A stretch of DNA of 64,000 bases. Source: Sphaerisporangium siamense (lineage in GTDB: Bacteria > Actinomycetota > Actinomycetes > Streptosporangiales > Streptosporangiaceae). Location of the stretch: assembly GCF_014205275.1 (NCBI RefSeq), contig NZ_JACHND010000001.1:7440001-7504000 (forward strand), given 5' to 3'. The notes under the pieces were generated by a model that ran no database searches, was not told the origin of the DNA, and saw only the letters and a program-made list of their open reading frames with translations. Numbering within the stretch: position 1 is the stretch's first letter; each line of letters opens with the position of its first letter. Position numbers and translations under genes: made by a program. Positions 2,956-46,355 of the stretch are shown piece by piece.

Positions 2956-2981
2956 TTCCTGAACTCCATGACCATCTACTC

Positions 2982-3013
2982 TGGACATCCGATAAGCCCG
3001 GCACAGGTGTCCA
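2982..3013. promoter_or_regulatory. Inverted repeat TGGACA-N20-TGTCCA between divergent MFS and AraC genes
   Basis: Half-sites TGGACA (2982-2987) and TGTCCA (3008-3013) lie in the 86-bp gap between the MFS start and the araC-family start. The arms are short and could arise by chance; an operator role is inferred from position only. Confidence 0.3.
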
Positions 3014-3041
3014 CAATGACATCATTAGGTACATTCATGCC

Positions 3042-24485: not shown

Positions 24486-25847
24486 ATGGCGGACTGGCGG
24501 CCCGAGGGGGCGTTCGAGGAGGCGCTCGGCGCCGCGTACGCCGCGGGCGACCTGGCCGCGTGCCTGGCCCTGCTGCGCGAGGCCGAGCTCGCGCTCCCGA
24601 TCGGGCCGGGCGCGGCGGCGGGGCACGAGCCGGTCGCCTGGCCCACGGTGACCGGCGAGGCGCGCACGTGGATCGTCGCCTGCACCTCCGCCGGGGCCGT
24701 ACGGGCGGTCGCCGGCGACGCCACCCGGAGCTTCCGCGTCGTCTCCCTGCCCGAGCTGGCCGCGGGATGGCCGGACGCGCGCTGGGGGCTGGCCGTCAAT
24801 CCCGGGCTGGCCGTGAGCCTCTACCTGGAGCCGGGGACGGTCGCGCGGCTGGCCGCGCCGTCGCCGTCCGAGGACCGCCGCGCCGTGCCGGAGTCCGGCC
24901 CGCCGATCATGCAGAAGGCGCTGGGAGCGGCCGGCCTGCGCGATCTGCTGACGGCCGGCGTGTCCCGGGTCTCGGGGTACTGCCACCAGGCGGTGGACGT
25001 GGCGCACATCGCGACCCCCGCCGTGCTGGCGGACGCGCTCGGCGCCGAGGGGACGGCCGGCGCGGACGGCTCGGTGAACCTGCTGCGGTGGCGCGCGGCC
25101 GGGCTGAACCTGTACCGGCCCCCGTACGGCGGCGCCGACGAGGAGTCCATGGCCGCCGTGGCGGGCTGGGTGATCGAGGAGCCACCGTTCACCGGCATGG
25201 GGTACGCCCCGAACGTCGATCAGGTGATCCGCGAGTACAAGATCAGCGGGGTCGGGCTGCCGCACGGCGCGGAGGTGTGGGAGCTGACGGCGTCCGGCGT
25301 CGAGCACCGGCGGGCCGTGTTCGACGGGGACCTGGGGCGGTGGCTGCTGGTCCACGTCGTCCCCGCCGGCTCTCCGCCCCCTGGCACGGATGAGCAGCAC
25401 GGCACGGAGCCCCCGGTCCCCGATCTCGCCCCCGCGGAGCCGTCCCAGGACGCGCCGGCGGCGTGGCATTCGTACCGCGCCCGCCTGGGCGGCGTGGAGT
25501 ACGAGGCGAGCCCCGAGCCGCGCGCGGACCGGCTGTGGATGCGTCTGAGGAGCGACCGGCCCGCGGCGGGCTTCGTCCAGGTCTCCCCGCGACGGTTCGT
25601 GCGCCCGGTGCCCGCGGAGGAGTGCGAGGCGGTGCGCTTCGTGACGACGGTCGCCGAGTGGCGCGGCGCCCCGTGCCAGGTGCACGGCGAGCACGATGGT
25701 GAGCTGCTGCTGGAGTACACGGGCGGCCTGCTGCCGGTCGCGCGGCGGCTCGGGCTGGAGCGGGTCGAGCGGGGCGTCCACCGGAGGTGGGTTCCCCGGG
25801 ACGAGGCAGGCGACCTGCGGGACCAGGCCGTCGACCTCGATTTCTGA
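24486..25847 (+). CDS. SseB-like domain protein, ESX-associated
   Basis: A 453-residue cytoplasmic protein with no signal or membrane helix. The N-terminal 120 residues (EEALGAAYAAGDLAACLALLREAELALPIG...WGLAVNPGLAVSLYLEPG) match the SseB N-terminal domain pattern common beside actinobacterial type VII genes. The middle (140-290) and a C-terminal domain (about 330-453, beginning WHSYRARLGGVEYEASP) are not recognised; a Pro-rich linker separates them. ATG 24486 starts 12 bp after the pseudokinase stop, implying an operon. The role is unknown; a chaperone or regulatory part in effector export is an inference from position. Confidence 0.7.
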   Translation: MADWRPEGAFEEALGAAYAAGDLAACLALLREAELALPIGPGAAAGHEPVAWPTVTGEARTWIVACTSAGAVRAVAGDATRSFRVVSLPELAAGWPDARWGLAVNPGLAVSLYLEPGTVARLAAPSPSEDRRAVPESGPPIMQKALGAAGLRDLLTAGVSRVSGYCHQAVDVAHIATPAVLADALGAEGTAGADGSVNLLRWRAAGLNLYRPPYGGADEESMAAVAGWVIEEPPFTGMGYAPNVDQVIREYKISGVGLPHGAEVWELTASGVEHRRAVFDGDLGRWLLVHVVPAGSPPPGTDEQHGTEPPVPDLAPAEPSQDAPAAWHSYRARLGGVEYEASPEPRADRLWMRLRSDRPAAGFVQVSPRRFVRPVPAEECEAVRFVTTVAEWRGAPCQVHGEHDGELLLEYTGGLLPVARRLGLERVERGVHRRWVPRDEAGDLRDQAVDLDF

Positions 25848-26029
25848 CCACGGCGTGCCGCACGCGACGAACCGGGCGATTCACCTGCTTGTGACCATCT
25901 TGCTTGCCCGCCATGAACGACGGATGCCACACTGATCACTCAAGTACGACTGTTTCCCTGAAGTTGGACCATGGTCGTGGCGCGGTTCAGCGCCGCGACC
26001 CTCGTGGGCAGGTACTCGGGGGAGGGTAC

Positions 26030-26434
26030 GTGGAGCCTTTCGGGCGTCCGGACGCGGCCGAACTGCGCGCCTACGCCGACGAACTGCGGGCGACGTTCAC
26101 ACGCCTGCACGAGGAGGCGCCCGCGCTGCACGAGAAGGCGCGCGCCGTCCAGGTCACGGAGAAGTCCCGGGACGGCCTGATCTCCGCGACCGTCGGCCCG
26201 CGGGGAGACCTCATCCGGCTCGACATCGACCCCCGCGTCTACCGGCGGCCGGACTCACGGGAACTGGCCGACTCGATCACCGAGACCGTCCACCGGGCCG
26301 CCGAGAAGGCCCGGGCGAAGGTCGTCGAGCTGTTCGAGCCGCTCATCCCGGCGGACCAGATGGCGGCGCACCTCGACGGGGACCTCGAACGCGTGCTGGA
26401 CCAGATGGCCGGCCGGATGCTCGGGAAGGGGTGA
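26030..26434 (+). CDS. YbaB/EbfC family protein, ESX-associated
   Basis: A 134-residue protein resembling the YbaB/EbfC nucleoid-associated fold: a long first helix, then VGPRGDLIRLDIDPRVYRRPDSRELADSITETVHRAAEKA, the strand-strand-helix unit. GTG 26030 is chosen because GGAGG lies 5 bases upstream; the frame continues upstream without a good start. It is followed 6 bp later by a WXG100-like gene and then the giant protein gene, so it is likely the first gene of that operon. YbaB-like proteins are frequent in ESX-type loci of actinobacteria; a DNA-binding or chaperone role is not established. Confidence 0.75.
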   Translation: MEPFGRPDAAELRAYADELRATFTRLHEEAPALHEKARAVQVTEKSRDGLISATVGPRGDLIRLDIDPRVYRRPDSRELADSITETVHRAAEKARAKVVELFEPLIPADQMAAHLDGDLERVLDQMAGRMLGKG

Positions 26435-26440
26435 CCCGCC

Positions 26441-26764
26441 ATGTCCGAACATGTCGACATCCACGCGCCGGCGGCGCACAGGGGGCTCACGCAGTGGGAC
26501 ACCGCGACGAGGGGACTCGCGGCGGTCTGGAAGGACGGGACCGCACGCATCAAGCGGCTCACCGAGGCGGCGCCGTGGGGCGGCGACTCGGCCGGGGCGG
26601 CGTTCCTGGCCGCGTACCAGAAGGACGGCGGCACGGAACGCATGATCACCGAGGGCGACAAGGTCATCAAGGGCGTGGACGAGCTCGGCGGCAAGGTGCG
26701 CCTCGCCGTCACCAGGACCCGCGGGACCGACGCCGGACAGGCCAGGACCATACAGAGCATCTGA
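26441..26764 (+). CDS. WXG100-like protein upstream of giant effector
   Basis: A 107-residue helical protein with a central APWGGDSAGAAFLAAYQKDG turn, matching the WXG100 helix-turn-helix hairpin (W-G-G here). It lacks a clear YxxxD/E export motif at its C-terminus, so it may be exported as a partner of another protein. ATG 26441 has GGGAAGGGG upstream. It lies 6 bp after the YbaB-like gene and 57 bp before the giant protein gene, so it is the natural candidate for that protein's secretion partner. Confidence 0.75.
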   Translation: MSEHVDIHAPAAHRGLTQWDTATRGLAAVWKDGTARIKRLTEAAPWGGDSAGAAFLAAYQKDGGTERMITEGDKVIKGVDELGGKVRLAVTRTRGTDAGQARTIQSI

Positions 26765-26821
26765 CGGTGGCGTCCGCGCGCTCCTGCCGCGCCCCGGCGG
26801 TGGCGAACGGGGTGCGGTGAC

Positions 26822-29800
26822 GTGACGATCGACGTGAATCCGAACACCTCGCCCGGCGGATCGACCGCCGGCGGGGGAAGCTCCACCACCGACATCACGC
26901 CCGCGTGGGGCGAGAGCCTCCCCGGCTGGGTGGACACGCTCATCGCGCTGATCGTCTCCGGGCAGAGCTGGCCGGAGGCCAGCGAGCGCCTGCTGTGGGA
27001 GCTCGCCAAGGAGCACCAGGCGCTCGGCGAAAGCCTCTACGGGGCCGTCGAGCCCGGCGTCACCGCGGTCAGGACCGTCCTCAGCGGGTGGGACGTCCCC
27101 GCGACACCGGGCTTCGTCACCGAGGCCGACCGGCTGTTCGCCGAACGGACCGGCGTGGCCGGGCTCGGGGTCCAGAACCTCACCAAGGCGTTACAGGCCG
27201 ACAACTTCGCACGCGAGACGCAGTACTCGAAGATCTCCATCAATGTCGCGTTCTGGGTGGCGGTGACCGCCGCGTTCATCGCCCTGGTCTCGGCGTTCTT
27301 CACCGCGGGCGCGAGCACCCCGATGATCGGGCCCATCGCCGCCTCCGCCCGCGCCACCATCGGGCGCATCCTGCAAAGGCTCGCCGCCGTCGCCGGACGC
27401 GACTTCGGCTCCACCATGGTGACCCGGCTCGCCGCGACGAGGGCCGCCCAGGCCGGCGGCGCCGGCCTGTTCCGTACGGCGCTGAGCGGCCACCTCGGCA
27501 GGGAGATCATCGAAGAGGTCGGCGAGGAGGTGTTCATCGACGCGTGGACCCAGCGGGAGCAGATGAAGCTGGGGACGCGCGACGACTGGGACTGGAAGAA
27601 GACCGCGGCCTCGGCGGTCGGCGGGGCCGGAGGCGCGGTCATCGGCATGAAGGCCGCCGGGCCGATGTCCCGGTTCGGCGACCGGATCCCGCTGCTCAGG
27701 GCCCTGAACAACGCGGGGGCAGGGCCGGGCGTCGCCAACGCCTTCGCGCGGTACCCGGGGCGGGCCATCCAGACCGGGCTCAACAACATGGCCGCGTCAC
27801 CGGGCGGCAGCATCCTGGCCAACGGGCTGGTCTACGGCCAGTGGGAGCTGCCCAACGCGGAATCCCTGCTGGGCGCCGCCATGGGCGGTGCGGGCCGCAC
27901 CAACACGATCAGCCCCTTCAGCCCCGACGTCCTCAGCGCCGTGACCCACCCGTACACCACCCTCTCCACGGCCACCGCCACGGTCGCCGCGAACGACGCC
28001 GCCGCCGCCGCGGACCCCGCTGCCGCCACCGCAACGGCGGGCGTGAACACCACTTCCGCCGCCGACCCCGCTGCCGCCGCTCAGGCCCAGCAGTCCTACC
28101 AAGACCCCCGCGACGGCAGCCATCCCGGCATCCCGTCCGCGCAGCCCGCCCAGTCCGTCCCTTCGTCGGACCCCTCGCGCTCCCAGAACCCGTCCGTGCC
28201 GACGGGATCCCCCAACGCATCGCAACCCGCTGGATCCCAGCACACCTCCACCCCAAGGGGATCCACCGGACCGCTGCCGCTCTCCCAGCCCACCGGCTCC
28301 GGAGGAACAACGGCCGGCCTCGGGGAAACGACCACGACCTCCCCAGCCCCTCACGACCCGCCCCGCTCCTCCATCTCCACGCCGCCCCCTACGGCGGCCA
28401 ACCCCGGCGCACCTCCCAACGCGAACCCCACGACCCCCGACTCCGGTGCCACGAGCACGAACAACGCCCCCGGCGCGACGACCACGACCGGTGCAAACGG
28501 CGCGACGGGCCCCGCCACCACAAGCACCACGGGAGCAACCGGCTCAGGGACGAACAGCACGGGTCCGAACAGCACAGGACCCGCCGGCACAGGTCCGAAC
28601 AGCCCAGAGCCGAGCACGGGAACAAGCGCCACGGGCACGAGCAGCACGGGTACTACGTCGATGTCGCCCGCCCCGGCGAACGCCGACTCATCCCACAACC
28701 CGTCGAGCAACGCGTCGCCCGGTCCGGGCGCGACCACCCCGACCCTGACGCCTCACACCGTCCCGACCACCTCCCAGCCGCACCCGATCGTGACCGGCGC
28801 GCTTCCGGCGGCTTCGGTACCGGCTCCGGCGAACTCAGGCCCGGCGCAGGTCTCCGGCCCGGACACACGGGCCGGGGCGGACACGCGGGCCGGGGCGGCG
28901 TTGGTCCGGGTGGTTCGTGTCACGGCTCCGGACGCGCTGCCGTTGCAGGACGGCGGCCTGCGGCTCAGCGCGCACGACGGCACGACCGTCCATCTGCCCG
29001 GGGAGCGCCTCACCGCGATCCACGAGCACCTGACGGTACGCGCGGGCGACGGCGCGACGTCCCCGCGCCTGGAGGCGGAGGCCGCCGCGCTGCTCGGCAT
29101 GGAACTCGCCCGCCTCAGCGGCCGGCCTCCGGTCGAGGGAGCCCTCAACACCCTCGCCCAGATATCCGAGGGATCACCCGATCACAGTGATGCCGTCGTC
29201 GCGGTGACCCGTGAAGTGCTGGCCGACAACACGACAAGCCGGCCCAATGATCGCCTCACCCCCGCGGCAACCCACCTTCTCACCCTGTCCGCCGCATCCC
29301 CGGCACCCGCCCTCTCCGCCCCCGCCCCCGACCACGTTCTGTCGCTGAGTCCTGAAGCTTTGGGCAGGAGGGCCGGGGCGATCGTCCAGGAGGCCGACGC
29401 CCTCCCCCTGGCCCTGCGCCTCGACGCCGTGTCGCCGACGGGCAAGCCTCCAACGGGTGGCGAAGATCCGAGCCTTGTCTCGACCAATGCCTCCCAGCCT
29501 TCCGGCACGGAGGGTGGGACGGTGCCCGCGCGGCCCATCCGGCGGACGGCCTTCGTCGCCGACGGTCGTCCCGCCCGCGTCGCGGACCTCGACGTGGACG
29601 AGACCCGCGCCGCCACGGCCGACCTGCGGGCCACCGATCTGGGACGAGGAGTCAGGGACATCACCTGGCCGCCCGAAAGCGCGACGCTTCGGGTGGAGAC
29701 CGTGGACCACGGCGTTCAGCACTTCACCTCACGCGTTCGGAACGTGCCCCGCGGACGGCTGGCACGGACCGAGTTGCACACCGGGACCGCCGACGACCCG

Positions 29801-32800
29801 CACGTCGTCTCGTTCCCTCCGAGAGTGGCGGCCGACCAGGTGCCCAGGGTCTGGGTGCATGAGATCAGCCACACGATGCGGCGGCTGGCGGCGCGCGAGG
29901 TGGGCGCGGAACCTCAGGGCGTCGTACGGCGGTATCTGTCCGCGATGAACCCGGCCGCGCCCGTGCGTGCCTCCCGCGACGAGTGCGTGGCGGCGCGGTA
30001 CGACGAGCACCGGTGGCTCGCCCGGAAATGGGAGTCGGCCCCGACCGAGGAAGAGCGCCTCACCCACCGGGCCGAGATCGAAGGCGTCGCCCGCGAGATC
30101 GCCCGCCGCGGCCACGTCCCCCCCACGCCGCCCTGGTCTCCGACCCTCTTCAGCGCCCACGCGACGCCGCCGACGTCCGTGACGGCTCAGACGTCCGCGA
30201 ACGTGGCCCCCTCCCATGGCTCGACTCCGCGGGCACCGGGGTCGGCGGGCACGGCCGAGCCGGCAGGCGCGCCGTCGTCCCGTACGCCCGATGAAGCGCC
30301 CGTGCCGATCACCTCGCTGGCGACGCAGGTACGGCGGCTCGCCGAGTCCCTCGAACAGGCCGAGACGGCGTCGAAGGAAGCAGAAGCGGCGAAAAGGAAG
30401 AACGCCGCGGAGGCGCTGGAGCACGCCACCGCCGCCGAGGAGAAGGCCAGAAAGGCGGCAGGTCAGCGTGACCAGGGCGCGGGCGAGCGCCGCCGCAAGG
30501 CGCTGGCCGAAGCCGAAGCGGAGAGAGAAGCCGCGGCCCGCTACACGGACGTCGCGGAGGCGTTCCGGCGCGCGGGCGAACGCGCCGCCGAAGCCCGCAC
30601 CGCCTACGAGAAGACCCTGAACGCCCTCGACGACCTGGCAACGCACACCTCCTCCCGTGCAACCCCCGATCCGGCCGCCCGCACCCCGCAGGAAGGCAAG
30701 GGGAGCGCGCCCGAGGCGGAGCAGGTCGCGCGGACTGTGCGGGAAGCCGAGGAGACCGCGCGGGCGGTGGAGAAGGTCGTGCGGGCCGCGCGGGACGCGG
30801 AGGGGCTGCTGGAGGCGTATCGAAGGGCGCTCAAGGAGACGCTCCCGCCGGAGATCGCCTTGTCCAGTGGCGTCCCGACGGGACGGCTTCCGCACCTGGG
30901 CAGGCTGACCGAGGCGATCAACGCGGAGGTCGGCCCCGATCACCGCTTCACCGAGGACGAGCTGAACTTCCTCCTCCGCGCCGAGTACCGCAGGATCGTC
31001 TCGGAGGACGGCCTGGTGCTGCGCCGGGGCCCGCACGAGATCAACATCAGGCTGCGGCCCGGGGATCCCGTCGAGGTCCTGGACCCCGCGGTGAAGGTGT
31101 CCGAGCTGATGGTGGGCACGCTGCCGCAGGGCGGCGCGTCCGTGGCGGCCACCTTCGCACGGGCCGTCGGCCTGTCACGCGAGGTGGACGTGGCGTCGCT
31201 GGCCAAGCTGGTCGGCGCGGACCATGGTGTCTGGGCGTTCATCAAGGCGGTCGCGCCGTTCGCCATCCTCAAGGGCGGGTACGCCCGCGGCCGCCAGGCG
31301 TCCACGACGGGGAGCGCCGCCGAGTACGCCCTGGCCGGCGCGGTCGAGGACAACCGCGGCGAATCCTCCTTGTTCGTCGCCCCCGCGAGCTGGAACCTCC
31401 GCGTCCGCGCGACCCCACCCGCCCAGACCACGAGCACCACCCCGTCCGTGGAGAGCACCCCCGAACCACGCGCCCTCCCCGCGAGCGCCCCTGCCCCCAG
31501 CCCCACCGGCCACGAGAGCGCTTCCCAGCCGGCCCCCGGCGGACGCGAGAACGTGCGCCGGTGGGAGGGGTTGCCGGTGTGGAGGGACGTCGCTTCCATC
31601 TCGTCCGGTACGGCGGAGGATGCGGGGATCCTGCGGCTCTGGGTGTCGCACGCCTACACCCGGCACACTCCCGAGAGCGTCGACCGGCTCCCTCCCGGGC
31701 AGCGCGGCAAGACGCCGTTCCCCGAGCATGTCGTCACCGGCCTGACCGGGCTCGAATCACTGGCCGACCGTGTCGCCGCCGCCCTCGGGCGCGCGCCGAT
31801 CGGCGGTGACACCCGCGACCAGCTCCGCGTGATGCTGACCGACGAGCTGCCGTCCAGGCTCGGCGAGGCGATCAACGACCCGCACGGCTTCCAGCGCGTC
31901 GTCACTGGGAACGGCCGCCCGCTGGCGAACATCCGGGTCCGCACCGAGGTCGTCCTGGAACCGGCCCGCGCCACCCCCGACCACCCCGCGCAGGACGGCC
32001 CCGAGGCGGTCGGGACGGCGAGCGTCAAGCACCACCAGGAGCGGCTGCGCGTCGGATTCTCCGGCGCGTCCGGAGCCGAGTCGGCCGGCCGTTCGACGAG
32101 CGTCAGCGTGAACGCCGGGGCGAAGGCCAAGGCGAACCTGCTCCTGGACGCGACGGGCGCGGACGAACTGCTGGACGCCGCCGGGGTGGACGATTCGGGC
32201 GCGGACGGCTGGACGCCGAGGCTCGCCGGGAGCGTCGGCCGGGCGGCTTCGCGGTCCGAGGGGCAGAGCGCGGGCGGCATGGCCATCCACCCGAGCGTAC
32301 AGCGGTGGTCGGGGCACACGCAGGGGTACCGGATCGCGCTGCGGCACACGATGACCGTCCGCGTGCTCGGCGACCGCGCCGCGCTGCCGCCCGTGCACGG
32401 CGCGAGCGAGGGCCTGTTCCGGATCCCGGAGCCGGACGCCTACCGGTACGGCCTGCCGGTGGACGCGGCGGCGGTGGTCCGTGACGAGGCGGGCGACCCG
32501 CTCACGAACCCGGACGGTTCGGTGCGGCTGCGCGACGACCCGTCCTTCGACCCGCCGCCGGGGCGCAGGCCCGTGCTGCCGCAGTGGCTCGGCGCGGGTC
32601 CGGGCCAGGCACGCGGGGCGGGGCCGGCGTTGGTGCAGCGGGTCACGGGCGTCGACGCCGTCCGCGCCCAGGTCGAGGAGCGGCTGCGCGCGATCGGTGT
32701 GCTGCCCGCGCTGGACGCGGACGGCGTCCCCAGGCCGTCCCGTGACCGGCTCGCCGCGGCGGCGCAGTCGCGCAACCTGCGGGAGGTGGCCGAGCAGTTC

Positions 32801-35800
32801 TCGGCGGCGCGGCTGGAGACGGGCTACGACCAGGCGACGCAGGACGGCATCCTGCTGGACCTGGTGCGCCACAGGACCGGCCAGGCGCCCCGGCACATCA
32901 CGCTGCGGATCCGCCTGGAGCAGCACACCGAGGCCGCCCGGTACGCCGGGGTGACACCGGCCGAGACGGTGGTCAACCTGGACATCGGCTCGGACACCTC
33001 GGCGCGGTCGTCCGGCAGGACGGTGACATGGTCGGGGCGGGGCGAGGTGGGGACCGGCCACGATCCCGCCGGGCCCGGCGACTCCGGCTGGATGTTCACG
33101 GGCGGCGCCGCCGGCCGGCAGGTGGCGCACGGGCGCAGCACGGGATGGTCGGCAGGAAACACGGTCAACCAGGTGCGGCTGGCGGAGGCCACGGTCCCGG
33201 CGGCGGCCTTCGAGGTCCCGCACACCGTGCACGTCGACCGCCTGCTCACCGGCGGACGGACCAGCCCCTTCCTCGACGAGGACCCGGCCACCCGCCGGAT
33301 CTCGGCCCGCGTCCTCCTGGCGAGCGACCTGCTCCCCGAAACGACCCCCCATCCGGCGGCGCAGGAGCGGCCGACGTCTGAGGCGGTGCTGGCGCGGGCC
33401 ACGTTCCTGCACCTGGACGCGGGGGACATGCCGGCGGCCGTCCGGTCCGTCCTGCCGCGGGGGGCGCGGCCGGACTCGGCGGCGCTGCAGCATCTCGCGG
33501 CGTTCTCCAACGTCCGTGGCCTCATCTCGCACCCGTGGTGGACCCACACCCCGTACGAGACCGAGCTCGCCGTACGGCCCGGGGGCGTCCGCCCGGTCCG
33601 CTCGACGTTGTCGATCCGCGGCGAGCCGGGGACCTCGCGGTTCGTGGGCGCGGTGGACGCGGTGAACGGCCACATCAACCTCACGCTCGCCGGCAGCACC
33701 ACCTCGGCGGGCCGCCAGCGCACCGTGGCCTGGGACGGCTCGGCGGGGGCGGGCGTGAACCAGGCCGGGGACCCGAAGGGCGGCCTCGGGCCGGGCGGCT
33801 CGGCGTCGCGGACGGACGGCTCCTCGCGGTCCGACACCGCCATCTGGGGCAGGGAACGGCTGACGATCGAGGTCGGCAAGCAGTACGTCTTCCAGATGGA
33901 CGTCGGCTTCACGGTCACCGGCTCCGAGCGCGGCACCCGGGGCGCGCACACCGTCACCCCGGAGAAGCCCGGCGGCGGCACGGTCGTCTACATGCTCCCC
34001 GAGCGCGACGCCCTGCTGCTGTACGCGGACGGCACGATGCCGTTGCCGCTCCGCCAGGTGTCCGACGCGGTGGAGCGGTTCGTGGACGGCACGCTGACCC
34101 TCGACCCGGTGCTCGCTCCCCTGCTGATCCGCCGCTATCTGACCGACCTGCACGCCGCCCGCACCTCGGGGGAGCCGCTGAGCCCTCTCGCCGGACGGCA
34201 CACGGCGCGGCTGCTGCTGGCGAAGCTGACCCCGATGTTCGGCACGGACGCGGTCGTGCAGAAGGGTAAGCCGCGGAACAAGCTGTCCCGTCTGCTCACG
34301 CACGCCTCCGCCCTGGAACGGACACAGGTCGCGCTGCCCGACCACTACCGGCGCGCGATGGGGCAGACCACGTTCGAGAGCGTCACGCTCCTGGACGGCG
34401 AGGGGAGGAAGGTGGAACTGGCCGCCGCCGTGATGGACGCCGTGCGGGCCGTCTCACGGAAGGCGCTGGACGCCGACCCCGCGCTGCGCCGCGCCCTCAT
34501 GGGCCAGTTCGGCGGGCAGAACTGGTGGGGCTCCGTCGACAACATGATCGACAACGTGACCGGTGACACGGCCCCGGACACCTGGTTCGCCACCGAGTAC
34601 ACCGCGCGGATCGGCGCGCAACGGTCCGAGAAGATCGTCGTACGGGTGCGGGCGCGCATCGACGAGGGCACGCCGGTCCTGGAGGGCCGCAGCGACGAGG
34701 TCGGGCAGATCATCCAGAACTACGACTACGCGCAGACCGAGACGTCCCGTTCGACCGGCCGCTCGTTCGCGGGCGACACGGGCGGGGACGGCGTGGTGGG
34801 CGACGAGTCCGGGAACGGCAGGGTCGCCACGCACCGGAGCCACGCCTCCACGGGGTCCACCGGCGAGCAGCTCACCCACCTGCAGCGGGTGTCGTCGTTC
34901 GACGGCGCCGACCGGGTCCGCCACCCGATCAGGATCAGCGTCGAGGCCGAGCGCATGCCCCTGGCCGGCGGGAGCCCGCGAATCCTCGCCGCACGGGCGG
35001 GGACGCTCGTGCGGGGCCCCCGCGTGCACCGGGCGCCCGACCTGCGCGGCGAGGCGGTCCGGCTGGTCCCGGACGGGCTGACGGCGCGCGCCGACCTCGT
35101 GTCCGCCCCTTCCCCCGCGGCCCCCGACCCGCGGCCGGCGCCGCGGCCGGACATGTTCCACGTCGACTCCACCGAGGCTCCCACGCTGCTCACCGAGGTG
35201 GCCGGCCGCCTCTCGGCGCGGGACATGCTCGGCCGGGCCGGGATGCGGGAGCACCGCACGCATCTGGCCCACCAGCTCTCCGCGATCGCCCGCATGGCGT
35301 CCTTCACCTGGATGACCGGGCAGGACGGGCATCGCATGGCGCGCCTTCCCGTCCCGGGCACCCGGGGCGAGGTCGTGGACGTGTGGGTGCGGGCCGTGCT
35401 GTCCGAGCCGCACGTCGTCGTCGGCGACCGGGAGAACGTCGAGATCGGCGAGGTGTTCCGCCGCCAGGAGACCACGACCGTCGCCACGAGCCGGAGCCGC
35501 GTCACCCCGCTCGGCGGCTCCGTGGGCGGCGGGCACGGTCCCGCGGGCGTCGGCGGGGGTCTGTCGGCCGGCGACCAGGCGTCCGAGCGCGACTCGGCGT
35601 CCGGGGGGAACCGCAACGAGACCAGCAACTTCGAGAAGGGGACCGCGGTGACCACGCGGTGGCGGGTGGACTACCACGTCCGCCTCGTCCGCACGACGCT
35701 GGACCCCGGCGGCGGCGAGCGCCCCGGACGGACGGTCGCGCTGCCGTCCTCCATCGTCGGCAGCGCCCACCTCCAGCTCATGCGGGACAACCTCGCGGAC

Positions 35801-37504
35801 GTGCTCACCCGTATGGAAACCCCGTCCCCGGCCGGATCCGGCTGGCACGTCCCCGGCCATACGGCGACCACACCCGCCCCCCTGGGGCCGGTCGCGGTTT
35901 CTCTGGACGAACTGCTGGCCGAGGCGCAGGGGCGGCCCTCCTTCGCCTCCGACCCCGGCGGGGCGATGGCGGACGCGCTCGGCGATGCCCGAGGCCGCCC
36001 AGGGACGCCTGTCCGGCTGCACACGGCCGACGCGGGCGCCTCTCCTGGGGTGGAGGCGGTCACCCACGCGCAGTTGCTGGCACGCGCGCTGCGCGCCGAG
36101 GTCCACCTGGACGTGTACGAGACCGACCGTGACCTCCACCGGAGGTACATCGCCTCCCCGGACGGCGCCCTCACCGGCGACCGCCCGGACGGCGGCTTCG
36201 CCCCGGCCCTCGCCACGCTCTCCCCGGCCCTGCGCACGGCGGCACGCGACGCCGGCCTCGACCTGCGCGCCCTCCACGCGACCCCGGACGGCCCGGGCAC
36301 GTTCGCCGACGCGGTGCGGGACGCGCTGGGGACGGGCAACGTGCCTCAGCCGGAGAAGCCGTTCTGGCCGACCAAACTGTGGGGTCCGGGACCGGAGGCG
36401 AGCACGGGCTCCTACCTGGGCGGCGCGGGACCGATGACCGCTCCCCCGATCCCGGGGACGGCGTTCACGGCGGACGGGCGGGCCGCGGACCTCTCCGACG
36501 TCAGCCCGAACGAGCTGAAGTCCGCGCTCACCGGCGTCACCGGCGCGGACATGCCACGAGGTGTCGGAGCGCCGGTCCTCTCCCCCGACGGCACGACGGT
36601 GTCCGTCACCGTGCCGGGCCGGGGCGAACAGCACTTCGGCTGGGAGGTCGGCCACGTGCGGGGCGGCCGGCTCGCCAGGACGATCAAGGGCGACGGCACT
36701 CCCGGGAAACCGCATGTCATCCGCGTCGCCCCGAGGGTCGCCCCCCAGCAGCTCCCCCGCGTCTGGGTCCACGAACTCGCCGAGATGACCTACCACCTCG
36801 CCACGACACCCCCCGAAGCGCTCGCCACGACACCCCCTGAAGCGCCCGACGCCCCCACGCCCGAGTCCTCGTCCGCAGCCGGAACCCCCGAGACCCAGGG
36901 CGCAGGGACGCGAGGCCCCGGGAGCACCGGGAATCGTCCCGAGCAGGGCGTGGTCCGGTTCGTCGGCCAGAGTGCGTCGCCGGACCCGGAAGGCGGCACG
37001 GCGGCACACCCGGCGAAGAGCACGTCAGCGAGCACGACGGAGAGCACGGCGGCGACGTGGGACGCGTGCCTCGTGGCGCGTTACGCCGAGCATCGGTGGC
37101 TGGTCCGCAAGCTGGGCTCCGCGCGCGGCGACACCGAGCGCGCCGTCTGGACGCACGAGATCGAGGGCGTGGGCCGCGACATCGAGGCACGCGGCGCGGT
37201 GCCGCCCGCCCCCTCGTCACGGTCCGGGGAAGCGTCCGTCCCCCCGTCGCCGCCGCCAGGTCCCGCGGGGCCGCCCCCGCCGCCCGGTGCGCCGCCGCCG
37301 GGCTCGGGAGACGTTCCCTCCCCCGATGGCGGCCGCGACACGGATGAGGAGTTCTGGGCACGTATGCGGAAGTTGAGCAACTCCACCGGCTGGATTCCCC
37401 CAGAAGAGTGGCGCAGGGGCGGGCGGCACGACACCGGCCCGCAGCCGGGGGCAGAGGCTCGTGACGGAGCGGACGGAGCGGTTCGCCGTGGGGCGGAGGG
37501 ATGA
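26822..37504 (+). CDS. Giant ESX-linked protein with WXG/CpnT-like N-terminus and duplicated metalloprotease-like domain
   Basis: A 3560-residue protein, GTG start at 26822. In order: a CpnT-like WXG100-type helical domain (about 25-140, PGWVDTLIALIVSGQSWPEA); hydrophobic helices (140-166); helical region to 370; Ser/Thr/Pro/Asn-rich linker (377-687); a mixed region; a domain (about 905-1100) with a zinc-type motif H1013-E-I-S-H1017 and E1054 in DECVAARYDEHRW; two coiled coils (1173-1270, 1297-1340); five strand-Gly/Ser loop-strand modules (about 1730-1852, 2025-2140, 2240-2368, 2590-2715, 2850-2960); and a second copy of the metalloprotease-like domain (about 3210-3460) in which the motif is HELAE (3317-3321) and the downstream acid is A3415 (DAC). 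No signal peptide is present, fitting ESX export. The last 4 bp overlap an immunity-like gene. Overall it resembles a polymorphic toxin or cell-surface delivery protein; no known toxin family was recognised. Confidence 0.85.
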   Translation: MTIDVNPNTSPGGSTAGGGSSTTDITPAWGESLPGWVDTLIALIVSGQSWPEASERLLWELAKEHQALGESLYGAVEPGVTAVRTVLSGWDVPATPGFVTEADRLFAERTGVAGLGVQNLTKALQADNFARETQYSKISINVAFWVAVTAAFIALVSAFFTAGASTPMIGPIAASARATIGRILQRLAAVAGRDFGSTMVTRLAATRAAQAGGAGLFRTALSGHLGREIIEEVGEEVFIDAWTQREQMKLGTRDDWDWKKTAASAVGGAGGAVIGMKAAGPMSRFGDRIPLLRALNNAGAGPGVANAFARYPGRAIQTGLNNMAASPGGSILANGLVYGQWELPNAESLLGAAMGGAGRTNTISPFSPDVLSAVTHPYTTLSTATATVAANDAAAAADPAAATATAGVNTTSAADPAAAAQAQQSYQDPRDGSHPGIPSAQPAQSVPSSDPSRSQNPSVPTGSPNASQPAGSQHTSTPRGSTGPLPLSQPTGSGGTTAGLGETTTTSPAPHDPPRSSISTPPPTAANPGAPPNANPTTPDSGATSTNNAPGATTTTGANGATGPATTSTTGATGSGTNSTGPNSTGPAGTGPNSPEPSTGTSATGTSSTGTTSMSPAPANADSSHNPSSNASPGPGATTPTLTPHTVPTTSQPHPIVTGALPAASVPAPANSGPAQVSGPDTRAGADTRAGAALVRVVRVTAPDALPLQDGGLRLSAHDGTTVHLPGERLTAIHEHLTVRAGDGATSPRLEAEAAALLGMELARLSGRPPVEGALNTLAQISEGSPDHSDAVVAVTREVLADNTTSRPNDRLTPAATHLLTLSAASPAPALSAPAPDHVLSLSPEALGRRAGAIVQEADALPLALRLDAVSPTGKPPTGGEDPSLVSTNASQPSGTEGGTVPARPIRRTAFVADGRPARVADLDVDETRAATADLRATDLGRGVRDITWPPESATLRVETVDHGVQHFTSRVRNVPRGRLARTELHTGTADDPHVVSFPPRVAADQVPRVWVHEISHTMRRLAAREVGAEPQGVVRRYLSAMNPAAPVRASRDECVAARYDEHRWLARKWESAPTEEERLTHRAEIEGVAREIARRGHVPPTPPWSPTLFSAHATPPTSVTAQTSANVAPSHGSTPRAPGSAGTAEPAGAPSSRTPDEAPVPITSLATQVRRLAESLEQAETASKEAEAAKRKNAAEALEHATAAEEKARKAAGQRDQGAGERRRKALAEAEAEREAAARYTDVAEAFRRAGERAAEARTAYEKTLNALDDLATHTSSRATPDPAARTPQEGKGSAPEAEQVARTVREAEETARAVEKVVRAARDAEGLLEAYRRALKETLPPEIALSSGVPTGRLPHLGRLTEAINAEVGPDHRFTEDELNFLLRAEYRRIVSEDGLVLRRGPHEINIRLRPGDPVEVLDPAVKVSELMVGTLPQGGASVAATFARAVGLSREVDVASLAKLVGADHGVWAFIKAVAPFAILKGGYARGRQASTTGSAAEYALAGAVEDNRGESSLFVAPASWNLRVRATPPAQTTSTTPSVESTPEPRALPASAPAPSPTGHESASQPAPGGRENVRRWEGLPVWRDVASISSGTAEDAGILRLWVSHAYTRHTPESVDRLPPGQRGKTPFPEHVVTGLTGLESLADRVAAALGRAPIGGDTRDQLRVMLTDELPSRLGEAINDPHGFQRVVTGNGRPLANIRVRTEVVLEPARATPDHPAQDGPEAVGTASVKHHQERLRVGFSGASGAESAGRSTSVSVNAGAKAKANLLLDATGADELLDAAGVDDSGADGWTPRLAGSVGRAASRSEGQSAGGMAIHPSVQRWSGHTQGYRIALRHTMTVRVLGDRAALPPVHGASEGLFRIPEPDAYRYGLPVDAAAVVRDEAGDPLTNPDGSVRLRDDPSFDPPPGRRPVLPQWLGAGPGQARGAGPALVQRVTGVDAVRAQVEERLRAIGVLPALDADGVPRPSRDRLAAAAQSRNLREVAEQFSAARLETGYDQATQDGILLDLVRHRTGQAPRHITLRIRLEQHTEAARYAGVTPAETVVNLDIGSDTSARSSGRTVTWSGRGEVGTGHDPAGPGDSGWMFTGGAAGRQVAHGRSTGWSAGNTVNQVRLAEATVPAAAFEVPHTVHVDRLLTGGRTSPFLDEDPATRRISARVLLASDLLPETTPHPAAQERPTSEAVLARATFLHLDAGDMPAAVRSVLPRGARPDSAALQHLAAFSNVRGLISHPWWTHTPYETELAVRPGGVRPVRSTLSIRGEPGTSRFVGAVDAVNGHINLTLAGSTTSAGRQRTVAWDGSAGAGVNQAGDPKGGLGPGGSASRTDGSSRSDTAIWGRERLTIEVGKQYVFQMDVGFTVTGSERGTRGAHTVTPEKPGGGTVVYMLPERDALLLYADGTMPLPLRQVSDAVERFVDGTLTLDPVLAPLLIRRYLTDLHAARTSGEPLSPLAGRHTARLLLAKLTPMFGTDAVVQKGKPRNKLSRLLTHASALERTQVALPDHYRRAMGQTTFESVTLLDGEGRKVELAAAVMDAVRAVSRKALDADPALRRALMGQFGGQNWWGSVDNMIDNVTGDTAPDTWFATEYTARIGAQRSEKIVVRVRARIDEGTPVLEGRSDEVGQIIQNYDYAQTETSRSTGRSFAGDTGGDGVVGDESGNGRVATHRSHASTGSTGEQLTHLQRVSSFDGADRVRHPIRISVEAERMPLAGGSPRILAARAGTLVRGPRVHRAPDLRGEAVRLVPDGLTARADLVSAPSPAAPDPRPAPRPDMFHVDSTEAPTLLTEVAGRLSARDMLGRAGMREHRTHLAHQLSAIARMASFTWMTGQDGHRMARLPVPGTRGEVVDVWVRAVLSEPHVVVGDRENVEIGEVFRRQETTTVATSRSRVTPLGGSVGGGHGPAGVGGGLSAGDQASERDSASGGNRNETSNFEKGTAVTTRWRVDYHVRLVRTTLDPGGGERPGRTVALPSSIVGSAHLQLMRDNLADVLTRMETPSPAGSGWHVPGHTATTPAPLGPVAVSLDELLAEAQGRPSFASDPGGAMADALGDARGRPGTPVRLHTADAGASPGVEAVTHAQLLARALRAEVHLDVYETDRDLHRRYIASPDGALTGDRPDGGFAPALATLSPALRTAARDAGLDLRALHATPDGPGTFADAVRDALGTGNVPQPEKPFWPTKLWGPGPEASTGSYLGGAGPMTAPPIPGTAFTADGRAADLSDVSPNELKSALTGVTGADMPRGVGAPVLSPDGTTVSVTVPGRGEQHFGWEVGHVRGGRLARTIKGDGTPGKPHVIRVAPRVAPQQLPRVWVHELAEMTYHLATTPPEALATTPPEAPDAPTPESSSAAGTPETQGAGTRGPGSTGNRPEQGVVRFVGQSASPDPEGGTAAHPAKSTSASTTESTAATWDACLVARYAEHRWLVRKLGSARGDTERAVWTHEIEGVGRDIEARGAVPPAPSSRSGEASVPPSPPPGPAGPPPPPGAPPPGSGDVPSPDGGRDTDEEFWARMRKLSNSTGWIPPEEWRRGGRHDTGPQPGAEARDGADGAVRRGAEG

Positions 37505-38046
37505 GGATGGCGATCTCTGTGGCGCGGACCAGGGACGAGGCGCACCTGTATCTGGACCTTCATCCCTGCGGGTCCTGCGGCTCGGTGGACACCGAATGGG
37601 ACGACGGGCTCGTCAGCCTGGACGGGGAGCCGGTCTGCCATTACGCGGGCACGTGCGCGGGCTGCGGCGGGGAGCGGGAGTTCCTCTTCGGTCTCCCGGA
37701 GCGGGAGACGGCCGCCGCGCGGTTCCCGTCCTTCGGCGGCCCGGAGCCGTCCGAGCTGCTCGACCCGGGCGAGTGGCTGTGGGTCGCCGACCTGACCGCG
37801 GGGAACGTGCCCGCCGACGACCCGCCCGCGGCGCGGCGGGCCCTGACGATCGCCATGGCGGCGGTCGAGGAGGTCGTCAAGTTCATTCCTCCGGGCCGGG
37901 AGGAGGTGCCCGAAGAGGCGTTCTGGTCGGACACGGGCCGCCGGGTCCACCACGAGGAGCCGGGGCGTTTCCGCCTCGACCGGCTGCTGGTCGTCCGCGA
38001 CACCTACCGCTCACTCGCCGCCCGGGAGGAGGAGCGGCTTCCCTGA
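37501..38046 (+). CDS. Immunity/chaperone candidate 1 with zinc ribbon, coupled to giant protein
   Basis: A 181-residue acidic cytoplasmic protein. Two CxxC pairs, C23-GS-C26 and C52-AG-C55, form a probable zinc ribbon. The C-terminal part, LLDPGEW...AVEEVVKFIPPGREEVPEEAFWSDTG, is clearly paralogous to the next gene. Its ATG overlaps the giant gene's TGA (ATGA), indicating translational coupling and matched expression. Small acidic proteins coupled downstream of a toxin-like gene are typically immunity proteins; a dedicated chaperone is the alternative. The family was not recognised and the function is inferred. Confidence 0.75.
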   Translation: MRMAISVARTRDEAHLYLDLHPCGSCGSVDTEWDDGLVSLDGEPVCHYAGTCAGCGGEREFLFGLPERETAAARFPSFGGPEPSELLDPGEWLWVADLTAGNVPADDPPAARRALTIAMAAVEEVVKFIPPGREEVPEEAFWSDTGRRVHHEEPGRFRLDRLLVVRDTYRSLAAREEERLP

Positions 38047-38139
38047 TCGCTTTCCGTGACCGATAGGCTCGAAGGGACCCGCGTGGGACGTGCCGGCTCC
38101 GCCGGGACACGCGCACCCAGGCACCAGGAGGCGGCTGAG

Positions 38140-38811
38140 ATGACGGGCGACGTGCCGGTCCTTCGCGCGCGGACGCTGGTGGAGGCGTACCTCTACATCA
38201 ACCTCACCGTCGCGGCCGACGCCGTGGCCCCGCCCGACGACGAAGAGGCCGTAGAGGGCTCCGAGGGCGAGGAGGCGGCGCGGGGGCGGGCCGCTCGCCG
38301 TGCGATCGACTACGAGCGCTGGACGACGTTGACCGAGGGCCGCACCGCCTGGTCGCTGCTCTTCGACGGCCCGGACACCGGCCCCCGCCACAAGATCATC
38401 CTCGTGATCCCGTACGACACCGAGTTCGCCGCGCGTCGCGAGGAACTGCGCTTCGGCCCTGGGCGCTCCGAGATCATCGACCCGGGGCAGTGGCAGCTCG
38501 TCGGCGCGGGGTACGCGCGCCGCGCCATGCGCGACGACCTGCTGTACGCCGAGAACCCCGGCGACCGGCAGCATTTCCACGAGGTGATCGTGAACTGGAC
38601 GTACGCCAGGGACGCGGTCGCCGAGGCCGCCAAGTTCCTCCCCGAGGACGGCGACGAGATCCCCGAGAGCGCCTTCTGGTCGGAAGAGGGCGCCGCGACC
38701 CGCCGCGACGAACCGGAGCGCTTCACCCGCGAGGGCCTGGAAAGCGACATCGCCCTCTACCAGCGCAACCTCGACCATTTCCTCTCTCTCCACGGCCCGC
38801 ACACTCCCTGA
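38140..38811 (+). CDS. Immunity/chaperone candidate 2 (paralogue of the preceding gene)
   Basis: A 223-residue acidic protein from ATG 38140, with AGGAGG eight bases upstream. It shares with its neighbour the start (EAYLYINL versus EAHLYLDL), the segment IIDPGQW versus LLDPGEW, and the C-terminal AVAEAAKFLPEDGDEIPESAFWSEEG versus AVEEVVKFIPPGREEVPEEAFWSDTG. The zinc ribbon of the first copy is replaced by an acidic insert (DDEEAVEGSEGEEA) and a strand pair. Two diverged copies after an effector with one active-looking and one degenerate domain suggest a duplicated immunity function; this is inference. Confidence 0.72.
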   Translation: MTGDVPVLRARTLVEAYLYINLTVAADAVAPPDDEEAVEGSEGEEAARGRAARRAIDYERWTTLTEGRTAWSLLFDGPDTGPRHKIILVIPYDTEFAARREELRFGPGRSEIIDPGQWQLVGAGYARRAMRDDLLYAENPGDRQHFHEVIVNWTYARDAVAEAAKFLPEDGDEIPESAFWSEEGAATRRDEPERFTREGLESDIALYQRNLDHFLSLHGPHTP

Positions 38812-42162: not shown

Positions 42163-45100
42163 TCAGCTCTGGGGAGCCGACGGGGCCAGGAAGGCGGTCT
42201 GGATCAGGCGGCTGCCGGAGCGGCGGTCCACGTAGTACCCGCGGCCGGGCGGCAGCGCGTGCGGGCGGACGCCGAACAGCACGCCCTCGTCACGGTCGCC
42301 GGACAGGATGACGGCCGGGCTGGCCATGTCCTTGAGGCGCTGCATGACCGGGTCGTACATCGCCCGCCCCGCGCCGCCCATCGCGCGGGCGAGCACCAGG
42401 TGCAGGCCGATGTCGCGCGCCTGCGGCAGCAGGTCCAGCAGCGGCGCGATGGGGTTGGCCCCGGTGGCGACCAGGTCGTAGTCGTCCACGACGAAGTACA
42501 GGTCGGCGCCCTTCCACCAGGTGCGCGAACGGAGTTGGTCGGGGGTGAGGTCCGGCGGCGGAAGCCGCTTGGTCAGCGCCTCGCGCGCCTCCAGGACCAT
42601 CTCGGCCGCCGTGGTGCTGGAGGCGGCGTAGCCTATGCGGTGCTCGGTATAGGCGGCGTCCAGCAGCGAGCGCCGGTAGTCGATGACGATGAGCCGCGCC
42701 TGCGCGGGAGTGTGCCGGGCGACGATCCCTTCCGCGACCAGCCGCAGCAGGTTGGACTTGCCGCTCTCGGTGTCGCCGATAACGGTCAGGTGCGGGTCGG
42801 TCTCGAAGTCGGCCGAGACCGGGGACAGGGTGGCCTCGTCGATGCCGATGGGGACGCGCGCCCCGGTCTGCTCCGGCCCCGGCAGCGCGTCGGCGGGCAG
42901 GACGGCGGGCAGCAGCCGGACGCGCGGCGCGGGCGGCCCCTGCCACGCCTCGCGGACGGCGTCGACGAGCGCGCGGACGCCCACGGTGAGGTCGTCGGTC
43001 TGCCGGACGCCGTCGATGCGGGGCAGCGCGCCGAGGAAGTGGAACCCCTCGCGGGTGAGTCCCCGCCCCGGCATGCCCTCGGGCACGGCCAGCGCCGTCT
43101 TGCGGTTCACCTCGGACTCGTAGGCGTCGCCGAGCCGCAGCTCCAGCCGGGAGCCGAACAGGTCGCGGATGCCGGGCCGGAACTCCGACCACTTGTTGGT
43201 CGCGGCGACGACGTGGACGCCGTAGCCCAGGCCGCGGGCGGCCAGGTCGGTGATGGTGGGCTCCAGCGCGTCGAACTCCTGGCGGACGGTCAGCCAGCCG
43301 TCCACGACCAGGAAGACGTCGCCGAACTCGTTGCCGGTGATCGCGCCCTCGGCGACCATGCGCCGGTAGGTGGCGAAGGAGTCGATGCCCCGTTCGGCGA
43401 ACTCGCGCTCGCGCCGCTGCATCAGCGCGGTGACCTCGGCGACGGTGCGGCGGACGCGGTCGCCGTCCAGGCGGTTGGCCACGCCGCCCACGTGCGGCAG
43501 CCCTTCGAGGGAGGACAGCGTGCCGCCGCCGAAGTCCAGGCAGTAGAACTGCGCCTCGCGCGGGGTGTGGGTGAGCGCGAGCCCGGCGATGAGCGTGCGC
43601 AGCAGCGTGCTCTTGCCGCTCTGCGGCGCGCCGACGACGGCGAGGTGGCCGGCCGCGCCGGACAGGTCGACGCCGAGCGGGTCCCGGCGCTGCTCGAAGG
43701 GCCGGTCCACGATGCCGAGGACCGCGCGCAGCTTGCCGCGCCCGGCCCAGCCGGTGGTGGACAGGCCGTGCTCGCGGGTGATGCTGAGCGGCGGCAGCAG
43801 GTGGCTGAGCGTGAGCGGCTCGGCCAGCGGCGGCAGCCAGATGCGGTGTGCGGGCGGGCCGTGCCCCTGGAACTGGCGGACCATGATGTCGAGCAGGCTG
43901 TCCCTGCCCACCGCCGGGGGCCGCGGCTCGGGCTCGGGCCGCCGCACGGGCGTGGGCACGGGGATGTGGGAGGTGCCGTAGACGACGACCTGGCGGCGGT
44001 CGGCGGGGGCGCGGCGCTCCTGGCGGCTCTCGGGGGCGAACGCGCCGGAGACGTAGGCGGCCTTGAAGCGGGTCATGCCGCTGTTGTCGAACTTCAGGTA
44101 GCCGTTGCCGGGCGCGGGGGGCAGCTCGTAGGCGTCGGCGACGCCGAGCACGACGCGGCTCTCCATGGCCGAGAAGGTACGCAGGCCGATCCGGTAGGAC
44201 AGGTGGGTGTCCAGGCCGCGCAGCCTGCCCTCCTCCAGGCGCTGCGAGGCGAGCAGCAGGTGGACGCCGAGCGAGCGGCCGAGGCGGCCGATCATGACGA
44301 ACAGGTCGATGAACTCGGGCTTGGCCGACAGCAGCTCGCTGAACTCGTCCAGGACGACGAACAGCGTGGGCATGGCCCGCAGGTCGGCGCCCTGTTCCCT
44401 GGCGCGCTCGTAGTCGCGCAGCGAGGCGTAGTTGCCGGCGGCGCGCAGCAGCTCCTGGCGGCGCACCATCTCGCCGTTGAGCGCGTCGTACATGCGGTCG
44501 ACGAGGGGTAGCTCGTCCTCCAGGTTGGTGATGACCGCCGAGACGTGCGGGAGCGTGTCCAGGCCGAGGAAGGTCGCGCCGCCCTTGAAGTCGACGAGCA
44601 CGAAGTTGAGGATCTCGGAGGAGTGGGTGGCGGCGAGGCCGAGCACGAGCGTGCGCAGCAGCTCGCTCTTGCCGGAGCCGGTCGCGCCGATGATCAGCCC
44701 GTGCGGTCCCATGCCGCCCTGGGCGGACTCCTTGATGTCCAGCTCGACCACGCGGCCGTCGGCGCCGAGGCCGATCGGCACCCGCAGCCGGTTGCGCGCC
44801 GCCCGCGGACGCCACAGCCCGGGGATGTCCAGGCGCAGCGGGTCGGCGACGCCGAGCAGGTCGGTGAGCGTCATGTCGGCGCCGAGGACGTCCTGGCCGT
44901 CGCCGCTCTTGGCCGGGGAGGCGCGCAGCGGGGCGAGCTGGCGGGCCAGCGCGTCGGCCTGCAGGTACGTCAGCCGGTCGGGGCGGCCGAGGCCGTTGAC
45001 GATCTCCTTGCCCGCGTGGTCGAGGACGACGCGGTTGAACCGGTCGGACAGGACCTCCAGCCGCAGCGTGGCGCCCTCCTCCACCGGCGCGGCGGCGCCG

Positions 45101-46134: not shown

Positions 46135-46355
46135 GTCGCTCCCCCTGTGTCGCGGACCTGGTCCTCCGCGGCCTCCGTGCCGCGGCCCGGCCGCGGGCCT
46201 TCCGGAGACCTCGTGTCTGGGCCAACCGTAGCGAATCCAGATCTTCGTCCCCGCCCGATCTCCAAGAAAGCGCGCATCACTCCCAAAGATGGAAATGTCG
46301 GCCATCGCCGAGCCGGTGGGGCCGCTACGGTATTGCGCGTGATGAAGGAGTCGGC

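Follow-up and report, generated by a model that had tools for sequence, protein, structure and literature searches.

A giant WXG100-like protein with zincin-like domains on both sides of a repeat core, near an ESX locus of Sphaerisporangium siamense

The giant protein and its locus

The window (the whole stretch of DNA analysed: 64,000 nucleotides of contig NZ_JACHND010000001.1, assembly GCF_014205275.1, forward-strand positions 7,440,001 to 7,504,000) comes from the 8.5 Mb genome of Sphaerisporangium siamense (Streptosporangiaceae). Positions below are those of the window, and features are on the + strand unless stated otherwise. A giant protein gene (26822..37504) starts with GTG and reads through as one uninterrupted open reading frame (ORF) of 3560 residues, as stated in a first-pass annotation made from the sequence alone; homologues of similar length exist. 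The protein carries a WXG100-like N-terminus, two copies of a probable zincin-fold domain and, between them, a conserved core.

The two copies were found to be 35% identical over 262 residues (E=1e-36), a similarity that is not due to chance, so that the homology proposed by the annotation holds. Copy 1 (residues 900-1112, 29519..30157; delimited by alignment of the copies and a structure model) contains HEISH (residues 1013-1017, 29858..29872), confirmed as the sole HExxH of the whole protein. The motif is followed by D1053-E1054-C1055, by RYDEHRW and by E1062 (D1053 to E1062: 29978..30007; positions taken from homologue alignments). Copy 2 (residues 3205-3472, 36434..37237) reads HELAE (residues 3317-3321, 36770..36784), followed by an insert, and D3414-A-C3416.

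The conserved core (residues ~1330-3180, 30809..36361; BLAST coverage and profile comparison) includes five related repeats: R1 (residues 1660-1862, 31799..32407; hhalign test span 1580-1860), R2 (1938-2200, 32633..33421; modelled), R3 (2205-2396, 33434..34009), R4 (2500-2745, 34319..35056; hhalign test span 2400-2740) and R5 (2780-2975, 35159..35746). Residues ~1160-1320, between copy 1 and the core, are rich in Ala, Glu and Lys and probably form a coiled coil; they are covered in 2-8 of 58 homologues (BLAST). The C-terminal tail FWARMRKLSNSTGWIPPEEWRR (37352..37417) resembles by eye the tails of the proteins of loci L063, L064, L086 and L087; a search pattern written for tails of this kind found 17 of 77 rows, the window's own tail not being among them.

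The only Pfam match of the whole protein is WXG100_2 (PF25547; residues 45-165, 26954..27316; 38 bits against a cutoff of 27), and NCBIfam gave none. ESX core genes lie in the same window: an EccC-type FtsK/SpoIIIE ATPase (42163..46383, - strand; three stretches matched by Pfam FtsK_SpoIIIE; the name EccC is assigned here) and EccD (46356..47843); WXG100 genes are also found near the giant gene. The WXG-like domain beside an ESX system, as annotated, is therefore present, and both features looked for in a WXG100-like substrate (a PF25547 N-terminus and ESX core genes) were found at this locus. A gene on the - strand (39013-40098), lying between the giant locus and the ESX core genes, encodes a WXG100 protein that has an SLT transglycosylase domain at its C-terminus and might be an ESX substrate that opens the cell wall.

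The zincin-like domain and its candidate metal site

The domain is a real conserved feature, since it recurs in dozens of related giant proteins. Copy 1 models well, with HEISH in a helix (residues 105-127 of the model). Several HExxH enzymes are among the best structural matches of this model in Foldseek, none of them significant. From the model and the HExxH helix the repeated domain is probably a zincin fold; to this extent the "metalloprotease-like" label of the annotation is retained.

Motif positions were counted in an alignment of 125 rows (window copy 2 counted as two rows). The fifth motif residue is His in 48 rows, Asp in 54 and Glu in 3. All 48 HExxH copies conserve the Asp, Cys and E1062 positions. 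Position 1054, proposed in the annotation as the third zinc ligand, is Glu in 6 of these copies, His in 18, Ala in 7, Leu in 7 and other residues in the remainder. Among HExx[HDE] copies, the E1062 position is Glu in 126 of 127; position 1054 is Glu in 26 of 127, versus 7 of 18 copies without the motif. Rows of a second alignment, A2 (70 rows: the window and 69 of 106 references), were all picked for the pattern H[EA]xx[HDE], so its invariant His is partly an artefact of this choice.

The annotation had further argued that the second His and E1054 are lost together, and that this coupling identifies both as ligands. Coupling was counted in 145 copies (4 of 149 were excluded for gaps): 126 have both HExx[HDE] and the Cys, 16 neither, 2 the Cys only and 1 the motif only. 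The association of motif and Cys is strong when descent is ignored (Fisher p 3e-18); that of motif and position 1054 is not found (p 0.13), so that the covariation suggested in the annotation is not supported. On a tree built without the tested columns, which gave 6 well-supported independent contrasts, the Cys goes with the motif in 3.9 and opposes it in 0 (median p 0.125); position 1054 goes with the motif in 0.4 and against it in 1.7; E1062 is nearly unchanging. From these contrasts, the coupled-loss argument fails for E1054 and works weakly for C1055, a residue that the annotation did not name. The alignments are suggestive, and only that, of a loss of C1055 together with the motif. E1062 is the likelier third ligand, judged from its conservation and from its position on the following helix of the model. 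E1054 was rejected in this role: it is unconserved in homologues and uncoupled on the tree.

Motifs on the two sides of the core were compared in 75 core-bearing ORFs, many of them close relatives, so that the counts are not independent. The N-side/C-side patterns are HExxD/HExxH (27 ORFs), D/D (13), lost/H (6), none/H (5), none/lost (5), H/H (4), H/E (3; the window lineage), D/none (3), lost/none (3), D/lost (2), with four further patterns seen once each. It is common for a canonical copy to be paired with a variant or lost one; in the window lineage the two sides are exchanged. Canonical HExxH was found in 11 of 67 N-side and 42 of 70 C-side copies. It is thus lacking from 56 of 67 and 28 of 70, respectively: family-wide, N-side copies lack it more often than C-side ones, an outcome that the annotation itself had named as refuting its view. 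As read from the alignments, the fifth motif residue is His, Asp or Glu according to lineage, and the canonical end flips between lineages.

The description of copy 1 as intact and copy 2 as degenerate was not upheld. Three species represent the window lineage among the sequences compared, and their copy 2 motifs read HELAE, HELAE and HEFAE. The ratio of nonsynonymous to synonymous substitution rates (dN/dS) is 0.45 for copy 2, 0.36-0.40 for the core, 0.25-0.33 for copy 1 and, in one comparison, 0.17 for the N-terminal region. By these ratios copy 2 is under purifying selection, evolving somewhat faster than the core and not freely. Decay of copy 2 was rejected for the window lineage (HE[LF]AE kept, dN/dS 0.45); motif-less copies do occur elsewhere in the family (18/145). 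Copy 2 has the look of a variant that is being kept, not of a remnant.

Some members depart from the usual arrangement. In L037 (Kribbella antibiotica), three HEISH copies lie ahead of the core and none behind, with only partner A (below) downstream. In L075, the giant gene is split into frames of 2568 and 1124 residues, with an N-side copy without motif and Cys (RQITD, NEN); this is probably a broken family member. In L042 and L045-L048, a weak motif-less domain match (residues ~730-1000) lies just ahead of copy 1; it may be what is left of a third copy, or an effect of composition. Some early hidden Markov model matches, for example on the N-side of L070, L089, L090, L094, L098 and L102-L104, were discarded as coiled coil or linker; they disappeared with a stricter model.

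No copy could be assigned to a known family: Pfam searches gave weak matches to DUF6782 and PF13699 and no match over cutoff. DUF6782 (PF20573, putative metallopeptidase) matches 13 of 70 copies weakly (best E 5.1e-5), window copy 1 not among them; three matches examined in detail (10 relatives, the best-scoring not among them) cover 29-37 residues around HExxH and score 11.1-16.7 bits, where the cutoff is 27. The PVC-metallopeptidase/eCIS core (PF13699) has the signature HExxHxxQ...E, which many relatives share (Q in 30 of 48 HExxH copies), and the domain likewise precedes extra segments in some members. However, window copy 1 reads HEISHTMR, with R at the Q position, and does not have this signature; 1 of 70 copies matches PF13699 (13.7 bits, cutoff 22), and window copy 1 does not. 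Membership in DUF6782, the eCIS core or M48 was rejected, as all such matches are short and weak. The 70 copies gave nothing convincing against NCBIfam. As for zincins in general (gluzincin-like; IrrE/PprI, BepA, anthrax lethal factor), copy 1 shares HExxH in a helix of the model and a conserved Glu on the following helix. It differs in that Asp or Glu takes the place of the second His in over half of the copies, in a near-invariant Cys seven residues before the Glu, in the lack of a significant Foldseek match or of a Pfam match over cutoff, and in its location inside giant WXG100-like proteins. In anthrax lethal factor, a Tyr lies seven residues before the Glu ligand; this was not used as evidence.

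Family, core repeats and neighbouring genes

With copy 1 as query, matches were found in 65 of 297 genomes of the taxonomic family. The 70-copy profile A2 matched 75 of 345 genomes of the order and 3 of 396 genomes in a sample of the phylum, the window's own included. Among the matches listed, ORFs are mostly of 3000-3900 residues (maximum 5849), usually with two copies ~7 kb apart. From the copy-1 matches 69 regions were selected, giving 70 loci with the window; L036 and L040 are the same contig, and L036 was excluded from counts. In BLAST from the window protein against 58 proteins complete in their locus (its own included), core positions (~1360-3150) are covered in 48 to 56, and the N-terminal region around WXG100_2 (~41-360) in 52. 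A relative with both copies, whose motifs are HEITD and HEISH, is found, for instance, in Nonomuraea gerenzanensis (Streptosporangiaceae). The family architecture is a WXG100-like N-terminus, a ~1850-residue core and zincin-like domains on one or both sides of it.

Larger or divergent proteins were also seen. In G411, a genome of another family, a 12,384-residue ORF holds the same core repeats (E 7.6e-118 for one part; L118, L112, L117, L140), and a YbaB relative is present in L140; the zincin-like domain was not found in the pieces of this ORF that were examined, and three pieces scanned had no Pfam or NCBIfam match. In G630, a 14,720-residue open frame has a weak core match (E 4e-4; L113, L119, L120); family models found nothing in the pieces examined. 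Some genomes of one genus group have second giant proteins of 4800-5850 residues (L141-L143), with ~1600 extra C-terminal residues that resemble by eye a kinase and an amidoligase, without a Pfam match; the extra C-terminal segments of L141-L144 are unclassified by Pfam. The C-terminal 543 residues of L058 contain a PI3/PI4-kinase-like domain (Pfam 1.3e-7, above cutoff).

The five core repeats were found to be related by hhalign, and each has a long Gly/Ser/Thr hairpin. The segment before R1 (residues 1330-1530) scores 91.3 against R5 and 75.2 against R2: either it is a sixth member of the set, or composition has inflated the scores. No Pfam or NCBIfam family matches the core; with 32 members each of R2 and R5, Pfam gave only families with single-member matches. 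A 12-row repeat profile matched Vip1 (E 0.003), the third match being a Gly/Ser-linker antibody fragment (1.9); its reversed control matched monalysin (E 0.054). The hairpin zone alone, forward, matched Vip1 only at E 9.5. Single-repeat searches of the PDB covered R2, R3 and R5: the R2 profile matched a lectin (0.0012, four weak repeats), that of R3 low-complexity SUZ12 (0.022), and that of R5 Vip1 at 0.6, third in its list. The R2 model found nothing significant in Foldseek (best E 0.15, among a mixture of alphavirus glycoproteins and pore toxins). Beta amphipathicity is significant in 4 of 10 strands and not in 6. The Vip1 match was not upheld as homology of the core to pore formers, given the pore toxin matched by the reversed control and the E value of 9.5 for the hairpin zone.

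Two genes follow the giant gene. Partner A (37501..38046; 181 residues) overlaps its end and has no Pfam match; partner B (38056..38811; 251 residues as called) is a paralogue of partner A (E=4e-13), also without a Pfam family. Upstream lie an SseB-like gene (24486..25847; SseB 20.5 bits, cutoff 21) and a YbaB/EbfC-family gene (25904..26434). In tblastn at E 1e-4, where partners A and B can cross-match, relatives were found in the 70 loci as follows: SseB-like 50, YbaB/EbfC 56, partner A 64, partner B 58. A 129-residue ORF just before the giant gene (26431-26820) has matches in only 2 of 70 loci and, in this frame, is unlikely to be a genuine gene.

In 19 aligned sequences, partner A has four invariant Cys and a mean column identity of 73%. 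Presence of partners was scored in 69 rows, each a core-bearing ORF whose locus extends 2 kb or more downstream. All but one of them (68) have partner A. Partner B accompanies 55 of the 59 rows that have an N-side copy and 2 of the 10 that lack one, these two being L083 and one piece of the split gene L075 (pieces are separate rows). A rule of one partner gene per domain copy fails: L037 has three copies and L144 two, each with one partner. In L142 and L143 one partner is visible, but the loci end less than 900 bases downstream, so that a second may lie beyond them. All that remains is the association between partner B and the N-side copy; the loci cluster by lineage and are not independent evidence.

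A partner A search gave matches in 8 of 296 genomes of the class. Three strong matches outside the family (E 1e-30 or better; L138, L163, L164) adjoin a domain protein without the core; weaker ones (L165, L166) have no domain neighbour. The L163 protein (1485 residues) has a WXG100_2 N-terminus and a motif-less copy, with partner A beside it; as this copy reads REISE, its catalytic His is gone. Partner A therefore goes with the domain whether or not this is active, the strong outside matches adjoining the domain even where it is the REISE copy. The C-terminal 400 residues of the L163 protein look nuclease-like by eye, without Pfam confirmation.

No family match over cutoff was found in Pfam and NCBIfam scans for the domain family, the core repeats or the partner pair, and no description of this giant-protein family was found in a literature search by title. 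The name "lonely Cys" domain, presumably applied to giant Streptomyces proteins, was not used; no model of that name appeared in the NCBIfam scans, and no paper on it was found.

Proposed function and rival explanations

The reading put forward, tentatively and with somewhat less than even confidence, is that of a giant ESX-associated effector whose two zincin-fold metallopeptidase modules are processing (release) peptidases acting on their own protein. From its context, the protein would be exported through ESX via its WXG100-like end, and partners A and B would bind the zincin-like domains and aid folding or delivery. The modules would act one on each side of the conserved core, the canonical copy cleaving, as fold and motif suggest, the Pro/Ser-rich linkers around it. 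The proposed metal site comprises H1013, E1062 and residue 1017, which is His in copy 1 and Asp or Glu elsewhere in the family; E1014 is the putative catalytic base, and C1055 would lie nearby. Copy 2 would be an HExxE variant that is maintained, perhaps with weaker activity or a regulatory role. The core with its five repeats may be the conserved working part, some relatives carrying effector-like segments after the C-side copy. As dedicated proteins, partner A and, where there is an N-side copy, partner B would recognise the zincin-like domain; for both, a role as chaperone or adaptor is more probable than simple inhibition. Homology, conservation, gene context and the link with the partner genes are observed; metal binding, proteolysis, self-cleavage, export and binding of the partners are inferred. 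Sections of an account of polymorphic toxins describe a releasing-peptidase layout (PMC3482391), which fits because the C-side copy precedes the extra segments in L058 and L141-L144. Several points weigh against this reading: some members are motif-less and yet keep everything else, 11 of the 18 motif-less copies leave the entire motif helix unaligned, the search model favours motif-bearing copies, and the window protein is without cargo after copy 2.

Retention of partner A beside motif-lost copies (L089, L098, L102-L104) and beside the REISE copy of the core-less L163 protein, together with the partner B association (55/59 versus 2/10), is what would be expected if the domain were mainly a docking module for secretion chaperones or adaptors A and B, with an inherited zincin fold and catalysis optional or lost. 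This explanation is rather unlikely: pure docking needs neither the motif, kept as HExx[HDE] in 127 of 145 copies (which the search model favours), nor the Cys that travels with it, and dN/dS is lower in copy 1 than in the core. Toxin (effector) domains with immunity proteins, as in polymorphic toxins, would also account for a partner gene immediately downstream and for two paralogous genes beside two related domains; Tox-MPTase families are predicted as toxins in sections of the same account (PMC3482391). That arrangement is improbable here, as partner A persists next to motif-less copies, the domains are internal as well as near-terminal, and partner A is very conserved, unlike immunity proteins. 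Immunity proteins change fast.

It is quite improbable that the domain is an HExxH-type iron/2-oxoglutarate oxygenase and not a peptidase. Such oxygenases (the ChlB HExxH domain; SjiH probably) share the motif and belong to a peptide natural-product context, whereas the present domain lies in a giant WXG100-like protein; their family was not among the 20 NCBIfam families listed for the 70 copies, the library's content for such a family being unchecked. The view of the annotation, in which copy 1 is an active gluzincin with E1054 as third ligand and copy 2 a decayed pseudo-peptidase, is given very little credence: the window and two near relatives do have canonical HExxH with a Glu 37 residues after the last His, but position 1054 is neither conserved nor coupled, and HExxE is kept in three species in a copy under purifying selection. 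A further proposal, held to be distinctly unlikely, concerns the core: an ESX-exported single-chain pore or conduit, in which five tandem hairpin modules would form one beta-barrel and the flanking zincin-like domains, one canonical and the other an HExxD/E variant, would cut off the export module and cargo. The long Gly/Ser/Thr hairpin of each repeat recalls beta-pore-forming toxins with membrane hairpins (Vip1, monalysin, aerolysin). If true, this would be a pore former with all hairpins in one chain rather than in a subunit ring, with built-in processing enzymes and dedicated partners.

The giant protein resembles CpnT and other polymorphic ESX effectors that have a WXG100-like end. The likeness consists of the WXG100_2 N-terminus, the YbaB/EbfC neighbour, the ESX core near the window gene and varying C-termini; the differences are the ~1850-residue repeat core, the paired zincin-like domains and a window protein without a known terminal toxin. 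Zincins and WXG100-like effectors are known kinds; the core may deserve more. ESX substrates outside mycobacteria are poorly known. The present locus type consists of an SseB-like gene, YbaB, the giant protein, partner A and partner B, and its zincin-like domain occurs in 75 of the 345 genomes examined from the order. This domain swaps its putative second metal-ligand position among His, Asp and Glu by lineage and side, which opens the question of the role of HExxD and HExxE in a metallopeptidase-like site, alongside that of the role of a five-repeat ESX-associated core of ~1850 residues.
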